The position numbers and the translations under genes were made by a program. This document shows, piece by piece, positions 24,367-27,954 of a stretch of DNA of 55,782 nucleotides. The DNA is from Comamonadaceae bacterium (GTDB taxonomy: Bacteria > Pseudomonadota > Gammaproteobacteria > Burkholderiales > Burkholderiaceae_C): positions 1 to 55,782 of the forward strand of contig JAUMYU010000007.1 of assembly GCA_030528485.1 (NCBI GenBank), written 5' to 3'. Position 1 is the stretch's first letter. The number at the start of each line of letters is the position of its first letter. The notes beneath the pieces are model-generated. The model worked only from the letters and a program-made list of their open reading frames with translations, ran no database searches and had not been told where the DNA came from.

Positions 24367-25314
24367 ATGCCCCGCCAAGATTCCCCATCGCGTCCGCAGC
24401 CTCGCTCCAACCCTCGCCGCGCCGAGTCTGCCGCCAGCACCCCAGCCGACAAAGCCCGCCAGGCCCTGGCCGAGCTGGGGCTGGCGCAAGATGTTTCTGT
24501 CGAACTGCTGCAAGCACTGCACATCCTCACCCGCGAAGGGCGGCTCAATCAGGATTCGCGCCGCAAACTCAAGCAAGTGCTGCATTTGGTGCAATTCATC
24601 GAGCCGCTGATTCGGGAGGCGGCCCAGGCCACGCCCGCCGATGGCGCACCGCCCGATGCAGGCCCCGTGCTGGTGGACCACGGCGCGGGCAAGTCCTACC
24701 TGGGCTTTGTGCTGTACGACCTGGTGTTGCGCCCGTTGGGGCGCGGGCGTGTGGTGAGCGTGGAATGGCGGCCCGAGCTGATCGCCCGCTCGCAAGCGTT
24801 GGCCCAGCGCCTGGGCTTTGCGCGCATGGCCTTTTTGCCCCTGGCCGTGGCCGAGGCGCAAAACGCCCCCGAGTTGCCCGCACGGGTGGACATCGTCACC
24901 GCCTTGCACGCCTGCGACAGCGCCACCGACGATGCCATCGCCTTCGGCCTGGCCAAGCGCGCACGGGCGATGGCGCTGGTGCCCTGCTGCCAGGCCGAGG
25001 CCGCCGCCCATCTGCGCATGAACAAAGCCCTGGCGCTGGCGCGCACGCCCCTGGCCGAGCTGTGGCGCCACCCGCTGCACACGCGCGAGCTGGGCAGCCA
25101 TCTCACTAACGTCATGCGCTGCCTGTATCTGGAGGCCCAGGGCTACCAGGTCAGTGTGACCGAACTCACCGGCTGGGAGCACAGCATGAAAAACGAACTC
25201 ATCATCGCCCGCTACACCGGCCACAAAAAACGCAGCGCGCGCCAGCGGCTGGAGGCCATCGCTGTCGAAATGGGCTTGCAGGAGCTGCTGGCGCTGCGCT
25301 TTCCCGTGCGCTGA
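24367..25314 (+). CDS. Class I SAM-dependent methyltransferase of the PF13679 type
   Basis: 315 residues. The N-terminal 60 residues are basic, then helical (ALHILTREGRLNQDSRRKLKQ). The catalytic domain shows the nucleotide loop VDHGAGKSYLGFVLYD, VVSVEWRPEL, the distinctive LHACDSATDDAI and PCCQAEAA. This Cys-Cys motif and the DxGxGKxxL loop occur in the methyltransferase family related to human GSTCD and bacterial RNA-type enzymes. The substrate is unknown. ATG 24367 is chosen; a 22-residue longer form from 24301 is possible. It is divergent from the PACE gene and marks the left edge of the AT-rich island. Confidence 0.85.
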   Translation: MPRQDSPSRPQPRSNPRRAESAASTPADKARQALAELGLAQDVSVELLQALHILTREGRLNQDSRRKLKQVLHLVQFIEPLIREAAQATPADGAPPDAGPVLVDHGAGKSYLGFVLYDLVLRPLGRGRVVSVEWRPELIARSQALAQRLGFARMAFLPLAVAEAQNAPELPARVDIVTALHACDSATDDAIAFGLAKRARAMALVPCCQAEAAAHLRMNKALALARTPLAELWRHPLHTRELGSHLTNVMRCLYLEAQGYQVSVTELTGWEHSMKNELIIARYTGHKKRSARQRLEAIAVEMGLQELLALRFPVR

Positions 25315-25427
25315 TCTGTTCTGTTGCGTCAATGACTTCTCAGGTCGGTGAAGCCGAAGGCGTGCTTGATCATTTCGCAGTTGATCTGCATTCCCTTTGA
25401 TGAGTAATGGAATTCCCCCGCAGCAAA

Positions 25428-25468
25428 TTGACAATGATAGAATAAATGATCATGAGATTTGTTCTCAT
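25428..25468 (+). promoter_or_regulatory. Promoter and possible operator of the RiPP cluster
   Basis: An extended -10 element TG-A-TAGAAT (25435-25443) is the best promoter candidate; a TTGACA (25428-25433) lies just upstream but is too close to be its -35. Around the predicted start, ATGAGA (25452-25457) and TCTCAT (25463-25468) form a perfect 6-base inverted repeat with a TTTGT spacer, a plausible operator. The ribosome site AAAGGAG follows seven bases before the ATG. Confidence 0.5.
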
Positions 25469-25488
25469 TCGTATGAAAGGAGTTTTCT

Positions 25489-25779
25489 ATGAGTTCTGTT
25501 GAGACGGCATTTGCGGCTATTGCACTTTCTTTTGTGGGAGGAAATTCAAGCAATCTACCTCTGGATCAGATTTTAATTAATAAGCCGGTTCCAGATCCTA
25601 TAAGTGAAAGCGTTTTTCAGTTTCTTCCAATCGATTTAAATGAAATAAGGGCGATCGAAGACAGGGCTGTTTTGGCTATGGGGACAACAAAATGCTGCGG
25701 CTCAGGAACTTGCGATATTATAAGTCATGAAGAAATGATGCGTTTATGCCAATTGCCTAATGGTTCTGCGTGTCCTTGA
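25489..25779 (+). CDS. Putative RiPP precursor peptide (Cys-rich C-terminus)
   Basis: A 96-residue peptide with a strong AAAGGAG site seven bases before ATG 25489. Residues 1-64 are Cys-free and end in a helical acidic stretch (IDLNEIRAIEDRAVLAM), like a leader. All five Cys (69, 70, 75, 87, 95) lie in the last 28 residues, mixed with Thr66, Thr67, Ser72, Thr74, Ser79 and Ser93; the core opens GTTKCCGSGTCD. This is the layout of lanthipeptide-type precursors, and the next genes encode a GNAT enzyme and a LanM-type dehydratase. The leader/core boundary is not certain; the GG at 17-18 is far too early. A terminator-like hairpin follows the stop. Low GC compared with flanking genes suggests transfer. 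Confidence 0.72.
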   Translation: MSSVETAFAAIALSFVGGNSSNLPLDQILINKPVPDPISESVFQFLPIDLNEIRAIEDRAVLAMGTTKCCGSGTCDIISHEEMMRLCQLPNGSACP

Positions 25780-25796
25780 TCATGAGTTTGAAATTC

Positions 25797-25835
25797 AAAA
25801 GCCATGCTTCGAGTCTGGGTTCGTGCATGGCTTTT
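25797..25835 (+). terminator. Hairpin between precursor gene and modification genes
   Basis: AAAAGCCATGC (25797-25807) pairs perfectly with GCATGGCTTTT (25825-25835), with a 17-base loop. It probably acts as a leaky terminator, so more precursor than enzyme mRNA would be made, as is common in RiPP operons. Confidence 0.75.
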
Positions 25836-25888
25836 AATTTGGTTTCAGGATTTGTTGTGTGATTTCATTTTATGGTATTGGATAGGTA

Positions 25889-26317
25889 ATGGAATTGATG
25901 AAAAATGGAGAGCCATTTTTTTTGGTGACATCCCCGCATGGTATAGAGTCATATCTTCCGAGCATAGGCGATGTGTATTTGAAGAGTGGGTGGGGAACTG
26001 CATATAGTCTGAGTATGCTGCGAAAAATGTTTCGTGGAGCTTATTATGTTGTGGCGATTTCTTCTGTCTCGGTTATGGGGTTCATTAGGGCGTTCACAGA
26101 TGGTGTGTGCGTGACTCACTTGTCTGAAATTCTCGTGCATCCTGACTATCGAGGGAAGGGGGTTGGTGAAGTTATGATGAAGAAAATGCTTGGAGATTTA
26201 TCTCATACAACCATGTACGCAGAGGTTATGCGAGGTAGGTCTGAGCGATTTTTTGAAAAAAATGAATTTAGTCAAAAAATGCAGTTGAGGGCGTATGCAA
26301 GAAAAAAACAAATATGA
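25889..26317 (+). CDS. GNAT family acyl/acetyltransferase in RiPP cluster
   Basis: 142 residues. The acetyl-CoA binding motif A is clear: VHPDYRGKGVGE (residues 83-94), with the preceding strand CVTHLSEIL. The C-terminal half ends in the usual FFEKNEF-type strand and helix. The single-domain GNAT length fits. In a RiPP cluster such an enzyme may acylate the peptide N-terminus or a Lys, as in GNAT-modified RiPPs, or may protect the host; the core has one Lys (68). The gene overlaps the start of the dehydratase by 23 bases, so the two are translationally coupled. It is AT-rich like its neighbours. Confidence 0.82.
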   Translation: MELMKNGEPFFLVTSPHGIESYLPSIGDVYLKSGWGTAYSLSMLRKMFRGAYYVVAISSVSVMGFIRAFTDGVCVTHLSEILVHPDYRGKGVGEVMMKKMLGDLSHTTMYAEVMRGRSERFFEKNEFSQKMQLRAYARKKQI

Positions 26318-27743
26318 TTTTAATAATGCTTTGGGTGATTTTAGGTTTAGAATGGGGGAGCTTGCTCGTGGCTTTTTGAGGGTATCAATAGAGGATTCGA
26401 TTTTTGATGAAAAAATCGAAAAAGTGATTTCTGATGAGGTTGTTGAGGAGTCTTGGGTGGCCGCGGAAGAAATGCTGATGCCGGCGCTTGTGTCTTTTGG
26501 TGCAAATTTTGGAAAATTAAATACTGAAAATTTATACAAATCATTTATGTTTGAGGCTTTTGATCGGTGGAGAGTTTGGGTGGAGTGCAGGCATGATGCG
26601 CTAAAAAAACAAGTAATTAATGCCAAAAATATGATGGGTGGAAAAATGGTTTCCGTTAACTCTATGAATGGGGATTTGCATAATGGGCTTAAGAGGCTAT
26701 TGAAGATAAAAATTGTTGACAGCGATTCGAAAGAGAAGTGTTTTGTTTATAAGTCGGTGAGTTCTTTTCCTCAGAAATTAGTTTTTTCTGTTGGAAAGGT
26801 GGTGTCTTCGAGGTTAGGTATTGATGATATTACTTCTCCGGTTTTTTGTGAGGGTGTAGATGGCTACTTAAGGGAGTTCGTTGAGTGTTGTGGTAATAAG
26901 CCGGTTGGGGATGTGTCTGGGTATTTTTATAATTTTGGCGTCATTTGTTCTATTGCGTCTTTTTTAGAGATTGTGGATTTGCATCATGAGAATATTATTG
27001 TGGCAAATAATGGTGTTCCAAAAATAATCGATATCGAATTAATCTTAGCATCTGCCTTGAAAAATGATTTTGTCTGGAGTTGCATAAATTCGGGATTGTT
27101 TGATTATTCAAGCTCTCCGATAGGGCAAAAAAACAGACACAGGTATCTGAATCCATCGGTGGCGTTGAATGGGCGTGATGTTTGTTTTTCTGTTGGGCGG
27201 GATCAATACAGTTTGGATCATATACTGAGGAGTGGGGATGGCGTTATTGTTGATCCCAGGGATTATGCGAGTTATATTCAGCGTGGCGCGAAAGATGCGG
27301 ATGATGTTATTCGCTCTGGCGGATGCGAATTGTTGAATCTTATTGATGTTGGTGAGGGTGGTGCTGTTAGGGTTTTATTTAGAAGTACTGCGTATTATAA
27401 GATATTGCAAATTCAAATTTGGTTGCCATGTGGGGATTTGGATGAAAATATTTCCGCGATCAGGAAAAAGTTGATTGGTTGTGCGCTGGGTAACGATAGG
27501 GTTGATGAGAAAACGAAAAATGCTATAATTGATGCAGAGATTTCCGATATTGTGCGGGGTGATATACCATATTTTTGGGTGGACTGCCGGAGGGGTGATT
27601 TGATGCACTCAAGTGGGGTAATTAAAAAACACTTTGCTCCTGATTTTTTTGAAAGTTTTTCAAAGCGTGTGAAAAAATGGGTTCTTAAAGATAGTTCCAG
27701 AGATATGAGCAGGGTGCTTGGTAGGATTTTTTCTGTTTCTTGA
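26295..27743 (+). CDS. Stand-alone LanM-type lanthipeptide dehydratase (DUF4135), no cyclase domain
   Basis: 482 residues, recognisable as the dehydratase half of class II LanM synthetases, which phosphorylates Ser/Thr with ATP and then eliminates phosphate to give Dha/Dhb. The kinase-type residues are kept: GDLHN (Asp127, His129), VYK (Lys153), DLHHEN (Asp228, His230, Asn233) and IDIE (Asp246, Glu248). The elimination region has LFRSTAYY (Arg363, Thr365, Tyr368) and the GDIPYF motif (422-427). The usual YKPR has become YKSV, and RPT has become RST. LanM proteins run to about 900-1000 residues with a C-terminal zinc LanC domain; this one stops right after the dehydratase, with no Cys-His zinc motifs. 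It follows the GNAT gene with overlap. Confidence 0.88.
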   Translation: MQEKNKYDFNNALGDFRFRMGELARGFLRVSIEDSIFDEKIEKVISDEVVEESWVAAEEMLMPALVSFGANFGKLNTENLYKSFMFEAFDRWRVWVECRHDALKKQVINAKNMMGGKMVSVNSMNGDLHNGLKRLLKIKIVDSDSKEKCFVYKSVSSFPQKLVFSVGKVVSSRLGIDDITSPVFCEGVDGYLREFVECCGNKPVGDVSGYFYNFGVICSIASFLEIVDLHHENIIVANNGVPKIIDIELILASALKNDFVWSCINSGLFDYSSSPIGQKNRHRYLNPSVALNGRDVCFSVGRDQYSLDHILRSGDGVIVDPRDYASYIQRGAKDADDVIRSGGCELLNLIDVGEGGAVRVLFRSTAYYKILQIQIWLPCGDLDENISAIRKKLIGCALGNDRVDEKTKNAIIDAEISDIVRGDIPYFWVDCRRGDLMHSSGVIKKHFAPDFFESFSKRVKKWVLKDSSRDMSRVLGRIFSVS

Positions 27744-27954
27744 TTTTTAAGGCCACCCGGCGGCATATGGAATTTTGCGTTGCTGTCACTTATCAGTCTT
27801 CTTGCCTGTTTTCAAGGTTGTTTGCATAGAGGCCACTTCAGATCGCTTGACTCTGGGGAGCAACGCAAGTAGCGGAGCGTCGGATTCAGGCACCACGAAG
27901 ATGCCTAGGGTTAGTGCTAACATCACCGCTTTTTTTCGCCTGCCCCCGACCATC

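Follow-up and report, generated by a model that had tools for sequence, protein, structure and literature searches.

An AT-rich three-gene island encoding a candidate lanthipeptide-like peptide with a recurrent cysteine core and a dehydratase without a cyclase

Can a class II dehydratase mature a lanthipeptide-like product when no cyclase accompanies it? The question is raised by an AT-rich island within 55,782 nucleotides of a Comamonadaceae bacterium (GenBank assembly GCA_030528485.1, contig JAUMYU010000007.1), the whole of which is called the window here. Open reading frames (ORFs) and Pfam identify three consecutive plus-strand genes in the island, which encode a cysteine-containing peptide, a GNAT transferase and a standalone LanM-type dehydratase of the DUF4135 family (Table 1). 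The island is probably a minimal cluster for a lanthipeptide-like ribosomally synthesized and post-translationally modified peptide (RiPP) whose dehydrated core would form its rings unaided. The core is found together with cyclase-less DUF4135 enzymes in five phyla (Campylobacterota, Patescibacteria, Pseudomonadota, Actinobacteria and Chlamydiota). These clusters form a real and recurrent RiPP family, an apparently undescribed variant of lanthipeptide-like biosynthesis.

The peptide core recurs beside standalone dehydratases

The first-pass annotation of the window described a 96-residue peptide with five Cys in its last 28 residues. The count stands, but the conserved core includes just three of these Cys; nothing in the other cores corresponds to the last two. 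The peptide is the putative precursor, and recurrence strongly supports the 11-residue core TTKCCGSGTCD as its predicted product-forming part. The family core, [ST]-T-x-C-C-[AGS]-[ST]-G-T-C-[DE], lies beside cyclase-less DUF4135 genes and is near-identical among the 11 examples from different clusters. A Ser or Thr stands three residues N-terminal to each core Cys, an adjacent Cys pair is present in 10 of the 11 cores, and position 1 is Ser in eight. One variant, STKDCATGTCD, has Asp at position 4 instead of the first Cys of the pair and keeps C5 and C10. The window peptide fits the wider form [ST]-T-x-x-C-x-[ST]-G-T-C-[DE] and has an adjoining standalone DUF4135 enzyme. The leaders appear unrelated from phylum to phylum. 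The window precursor has no Pfam or NCBIfam match at E values up to 1, hence no match to an NHLP or Nif11 leader. At another locus (L086, 5834-6313) the leader of the RiPP precursor matches a peptidoglycan-binding domain (PF01471, 2e-8).

A plasmid search yielded the Helicobacter pylori plasmids p1HPAKL117 and pHPPC4, which have standalone 518-aa DUF4135 genes. Immediately before each gene is a 40-codon ORF that contains STACCASGTCD, which resembles the window core. By annotation p1HPAKL117 also bears SagB dehydrogenase and YcaO genes (L131, 2569-4724), and none is annotated on pHPPC4; a further RiPP cluster of another kind is therefore probable on p1HPAKL117. The pattern T-x-C-C-x-[ST]-G-T-C-D, built after the plasmid finds, was used to scan genome contigs and gave 43 loci. 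Eight of the 43 genomes have a DUF4135 match, and in five of these a standalone DUF4135 gene (open frames of 480-576 aa) accompanies the peptide. The five are Rhodospirillaceae BH24, Bacterium HR35, KatS3mg097 (Parcubacteria), an actinobacterial metagenome-assembled genome (MAG) and a gammaproteobacterial MAG in which peptide and enzyme lie at the ends of two contigs. The HR35 enzyme is 43% identical to that of KatS3mg097. The remaining three genomes have full-length LanMs located elsewhere. The 38 other pattern loci resemble chance matches, L070 probably excepted: there STLCCASGTCD occurs with the truncated start of an enzyme (blastp 9e-6) and with an ABC transporter.

Position 1, which is free in the pattern, is Ser or Thr in 5/5 family loci versus 4/38 others (p = 1.3e-4). 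The combination of S/T1, K/R3 and S/T7, picked after the family had been seen, is present in 5/5 versus 0/38 (p = 1e-6), with L070, probably a decayed member, counted in the 38. A six-frame check of 131 loci (863 kb) found [ST][ST]..C.[ST]G[ST]C only at the family places and in L041, L045 and L067, which had themselves been selected by the core pattern; this expression does not capture L107, where position 10 is Arg.

Wider samples were searched for further members. A protein scan of genome contigs for close relatives confirmed 0 of 19 pattern stretches. The dehydratase was found in 1/399 genomes of the order sample, the window's own, and in 3/399 of the family sample, where the other two are weak matches inside frames of 989 and 994 aa. 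DUF4135 was present in 9/398 genomes of the phylum sample. Besides the window genome these are seven with frames of 870-1117 aa and G639, whose 496-aa frame (L009) is not flanked by such a core. The Patescibacteria sample returned the already known member (1/239), and the family of G1183 did the same (1/2). The family of G1171 gave 2/48, the known member and a decayed copy in G1476 (L095, 5007-7075) that consists of a GNAT and a DUF4135 frame with two in-frame TAG codons, with no recognisable core peptide. Plasmids searched by tblastn with the window precursor and phages searched with the dehydratase gave no match. Among viral contigs, 0/348 stretches were confirmed by alignment and none of 15 core-pattern loci had a significant dehydratase match. 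Two plasmid matches were rejected as members. The Azospirillum match is a 1016-aa frame and has no core. On Salmonella plasmid pRSE21 a standalone DUF4135 gene occurs with LanC encoded separately, and such a core is absent; there (L093, 3575-6092) the two genes are adjacent and slightly overlapping, a split class II system.

Chlamydiota were queried by enzyme alignment, not by core. The alignment matched 23 of 232 genomes, and the core was found in three. L102 has TTRCCATGTCE before a 535-aa frame, L104 has STKDCATGTCD just downstream of a 547-aa frame, and L107 has STKCCATGTRD before an enzyme interrupted by a stop. L103 is a single-frame, high-scoring match whose upstream side is cut by a contig end. 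Most other Chlamydiota matches were not counted as members; they are weak, divergent frames of ~440-610 aa without the core. Such divergent DUF4135-like frames make up L108-L124, and of the two that were aligned (L108 and L109), L109 lacks the R359 and T365 equivalents. One genome of this phylum, G1608, has three full LanMs.

The first-pass annotation had proposed asking whether peptide homologues adjoin dehydratase homologues and whether the three-gene order recurs. Both do: the core was found beside cyclase-less dehydratases in several phyla, and the order peptide-GNAT-dehydratase in three other genomes, in one of them across a contig break.

The dehydratase retains the phosphorylation and elimination residues

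The window dehydratase matches PF13575 (DUF4135) at 8.5e-24 over residues 109-428 in Pfam. The NCBIfam LanM model TIGR03897 matches with 82 bits, under its cut-off of 304, and neither database gives a LANC_like (PF05147) match in the 482 residues. Phosphorylation by CylM needs K274, D347, H349, N352 and D364, and phosphate elimination needs D252, H254, R506 and T512 (PMC4550811; this and the other papers cited by number, PMC12291118 apart, are cited from excerpts). The equivalents in the window enzyme are D127, H129, K153, D228, H230, N233, D246, R359 and T365. The phosphorylation residues, D252 and H254 were mapped by pairwise alignment with CylM; R506 and T512 were mapped via a LanM alignment, from which the CylM sequence is absent, and their spacing of six. 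All nine residues are invariant in 14/14 aligned sequences (ten standalone, four LanM) and in 11/11 single-frame standalone enzymes once L105 is added. The description of the protein as a LanM dehydratase without a cyclase is thus upheld. Because the elimination residues are invariant, the window enzyme should dehydrate, unlike EmbM of phospeptin biosynthesis. Excised dehydration domains of CylM, HalM2 and NukM are sufficient for dehydration (PMC10676384).

The seven standalone enzymes in the tree share 14-25% mutual identity, except for two closer pairs (43 and 49%), and they are on average 16-22% identical to 14 LanM domains.

GNAT, exporter and LanC genes differ among the clusters

The Pfam match in Table 1 bears out the GNAT gene placed by the first-pass annotation between the peptide and dehydratase genes. 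A window-like GNAT precedes the dehydratase in G1183, G1171 and G1165, and it is each genome's best match to the window GNAT. A more distant GNAT, whose transcription runs away from the peptide, occurs in KatS3mg097 and HR35. The GNAT of the Rhodospirillaceae cluster is tandem, that of the window single. In G1165 a gene for an HlyC-type acyltransferase (PF02794, 1.7e-24) overlaps the end of the dehydratase gene (L085, 1858-2364).

The Helicobacter plasmids and four Chlamydiota loci (L070, L102, L103 and L105) carry an ABC exporter. It aligns over most of the available length with the G1165 exporter, and two control ABC proteins align over shorter lengths. This Helicobacter and Chlamydiota branch has the order peptide-dehydratase-ABC exporter. 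Pfam finds no C39 peptidase in the five of these exporters that were scanned; those of L102 and L103 end at or near the locus end. No exporter was seen in the window island. The earlier statement that no transporter is present therefore holds for the island itself, but not for the related branch.

A LanC_like (PF05147) gene was absent in 6/6 genomes tested, a set without the Helicobacter and Chlamydiota genomes. Within it KatS3mg097 is titled a complete genome and the window genome is incomplete (80.5%). Together with the domain content of the dehydratase, this agrees with the claim that no local cyclase is present.

Proposed pathway

We strongly infer that the DUF4135 protein would phosphorylate Ser and Thr of the core with ATP and eliminate the phosphate, leaving dehydroalanine (Dha) and dehydrobutyrine (Dhb). 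Positions 1-5 would then read Dhx-Dhx-Xxx-Xxx-Cys (Dhx, a dehydrated residue; Xxx, any residue). Since this is a known self-closing motif, a cyclase would not be needed and ring 1-5 could close unaided. A second small ring would probably join position 7 to Cys10, with Cys4 spare. Rings 1-5 and 7-10 are proposed because the core is composed of [ST]1-T2-x3-x4-C5 and [ST]7-G8-T9-C10, and the variant with Asp at position 4 retains C5 and C10. Small rings with this spacing occur in nisin. Ring closure without an enzyme is a prediction of moderate strength. Such Dhx-Dhx-Xxx-Xxx-Cys motifs favor LL-methyllanthionine (MeLan) (PMC11343131), and an exception to the motif rule is noted (PMC13060208). The GNAT may acylate the peptide, perhaps at Lys3 or the freed N terminus; this is the weakest step of the pathway, and we infer it only weakly. 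Leader removal and export would fall to general host functions here and to the ABC exporter in the Helicobacter and Chlamydiota branch.

The near-invariance of the core, beside enzymes that differ almost as much from one another as from LanMs, suggests that its target or function is constrained. The simplest reading of these sequences is that the core is under strong constraint, with convergence or a shared recognition need as alternatives. We tentatively raise a broader possibility, that the clusters represent a separate lanthipeptide class in at least five phyla, which uses a class II dehydratase alone and in which the self-cyclising core sets the ring pattern. The fixed core would then point to a conserved signal, metal carrier or target rather than a fast-evolving antibiotic.

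Alternative explanations

Several observations weigh against a self-closing, acylated product. The DUF4135 domain of CcaM is inactive when cut from its cyclase (PMC10676384), and non-enzymatic MeLan formation is far slower than that of lanthionine (PMC13060208). The window has Thr, not Ser, at core position 1, and Ser would give the more reactive Dha. The conservation seen in the five members from the genome scan is biased because positions 2, 4, 5 and 7-11 belonged to the search pattern. Among the Chlamydiota matches, 20/23 genomes have no core within flanks of ~1.5 kb, some of them cut by contig ends, and L105, an exception to any strict pairing of enzyme and core, has an intact-looking enzyme with all nine residues beside a precursor-like ORF without the core. 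The tree does not unite the standalone enzymes in one clade, and the actinobacterial enzyme groups with LanMs. An AlphaFold model of the dehydratase, built from 4 sequences, had a mean pLDDT of 41.5 and was not used. As to acylation, one GNAT-bearing cluster has Arg at the Lys position of the core, and the GNAT model gave no match on either whole Helicobacter plasmid or at six Chlamydiota loci (3-8 kb); this model is not exhaustive, because it missed the KatS3mg097 GNAT that Pfam detects.

The lack of a LanC-like gene in the six genomes suits not only self-closure but also a linear product, a dehydrated peptide whose free Cys thiols bind metal or act in redox chemistry. The adjacent Cys pair points the same way, and conservation of the core across phyla would suit a metallophore or cofactor. 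We consider a linear product unlikely, as each core Cys has a Ser or Thr three residues ahead of it, positions 1-5 match the self-cyclising motif, and one member does without Cys4. A cyclase unrelated to LanC could act in trans. The LanC test covered PF05147 in six genomes, and kinase-fold cyclases exist for aminovinyl-cysteine (AviCys) rings (PMC12291118), but no further gene common to all clusters was seen and the core motif requires no cyclase; such an enzyme seems quite improbable. It is more doubtful still that the DUF4135 protein solely phosphorylates, to give a phosphopeptide. EmbM, which does so in phospeptin biosynthesis, is likewise LanM-like without a cyclase (PMC9505594), but it lacks the elimination residues. 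In all 11 standalone enzymes the positions corresponding to D252, H254, R506 and T512 do not vary, and the core is rich in Cys. The small size of the island and the decayed copies elsewhere (G1476 with its in-frame TAG codons, L070 and L107) would fit chance neighbours or the remnant of an ordinary lanthipeptide cluster that lost its LanC half. That account is barely credible, since several phyla pair this core with a cyclase-less enzyme of one kind and the catalytic residues are intact here.

The role of the GNAT is a separate matter, independent of ring formation. It might be a self-resistance enzyme that inactivates the product rather than a maturation enzyme, a role for which GNATs are mentioned in PMC13060382. 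The Helicobacter plasmids with an exporter yielded no GNAT, so immunity could take either form, exporter or GNAT. Against this, GNATs acylate some lanthipeptides (PMC13060382), and one cluster has the HlyC-type acyltransferase gene overlapping its dehydratase gene together with both GNAT and exporter. Self-resistance is a live but rather unlikely option, and self-closing rings on a dehydrated core remain the preferred reading of the cluster.

Relation to known systems

The window shares with class II lanthipeptides (LanM) a DUF4135 protein with the full kinase and elimination set and a precursor core of Ser/Thr and Cys. It differs in that the island has neither a LanC domain nor a transporter, and in that no LanC-like gene was found. 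PoyF (polytheonamide) and EmbM (phospeptin) are also LanM-like enzymes without a cyclisation domain (PMC9505594). According to the excerpts, PoyF dehydrates just one residue, an N-terminal Thr, in a product with many other modifications, and the EmbM precursor lacks Cys, whereas the window core has three Cys and its enzyme intact elimination residues. A phospeptin-type kinase reading was rejected on account of these residues. Selidamides and nostolysamides combine a precursor, a LanM and a GNAT that acylates Lys or ornithine side chains (PMC13060382, PMC9505594). Their described systems have a full class II synthetase and NHLP or Nif11 leaders, and NpuN is a tandem GNAT. Dehydrazoles (CcaM) likewise undergo DUF4135 dehydration, without lanthionine rings (PMC10676384), but they are found with a YcaO and with a class III cyclase domain fused to the enzyme, and the window island has neither. 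The dehydrazole reading was rejected, as the island has no YcaO and the next genes are the methyltransferase gene and serA (Pfam). In class V lanthipeptides (rosin A1, cacaoidin) rosin is dehydrated by the two-protein complex RosK-RosY, not by DUF4135; the window dehydratase is DUF4135, and the other island products are a GNAT and a peptide without a Pfam or NCBIfam match. A search of open-access full text, which mostly leaves out subscription papers, found no description of the core or the three-gene set among the papers listed. The earlier remark that no described system is known with exactly these three parts is consistent with this result.

If the proposed pathway is right, a complete lanthipeptide pathway could be served by a class II dehydratase in the absence of a cyclase, with the ring chemistry encoded in the substrate. 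The core plus a standalone DUF4135 gene is a search handle for a family that would escape cyclase-based mining, H. pylori plasmids and Chlamydiota included. The recurrence suggests an overlooked peptide family, perhaps with self-closing rings, and a core so conserved across phyla leads directly to the question of its target.

The island and its insertion site

The peptide, GNAT and dehydratase genes have GC contents of 41, 42 and 39% and third-position GC (GC3) of 31, 41 and 36%. The flanking methyltransferase gene has 68% GC and 83% GC3, and serA 63% and 84%. In G1078, a genome of the same genus, the flank alignments are 96-97% identical and 108 nt apart, versus 2637 nt in the window. The site is empty in G1078, compared with which the block is an insertion; the three-gene group was apparently acquired. 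ORFs, GC step and empty site together confirm the AT-rich plus-strand island first described between these two genes. The source genome (132 contigs) has a single DUF4135 protein of this sort.

Table 1. Features of the island in window coordinates
Feature	Position	Strand	Basis
AT-rich island between methyltransferase gene and serA	25312..27948		GC step; 108 nt there in relative G1078
Shine-Dalgarno-like AAAGGAG, six bases before peptide start	25476..25482	+	Read from sequence
Precursor peptide gene, 96 aa	25489..25779	+	ORF; core common to other clusters
Conserved core TTKCCGSGTCD, residues 66-76	25684..25716	+	Family consensus
Hairpin between precursor and GNAT genes	25792..25840 (arms 25792-25807 / 25825-25840)	+	Inverted repeat; fold z -3.2
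GNAT acyl/acetyltransferase, 142 aa, RxxGxG motif (RGKGVG)	25889..26317	+	Pfam Acetyltransf_7 2.7e-9
Standalone LanM-type dehydratase (DUF4135), 482 aa, no LanC domain	26295..27743	+	Pfam, NCBIfam, catalytic residues

Anti-phage defence models gave no match to five proteins. The GNAT and dehydratase genes share a 23-nt overlap. The 3' arm of the hairpin ahead of them ends in TTTT plus a few further bases; the hairpin is not among the results of a consensus terminator scan. It is possibly an attenuator that would yield more precursor than enzyme.

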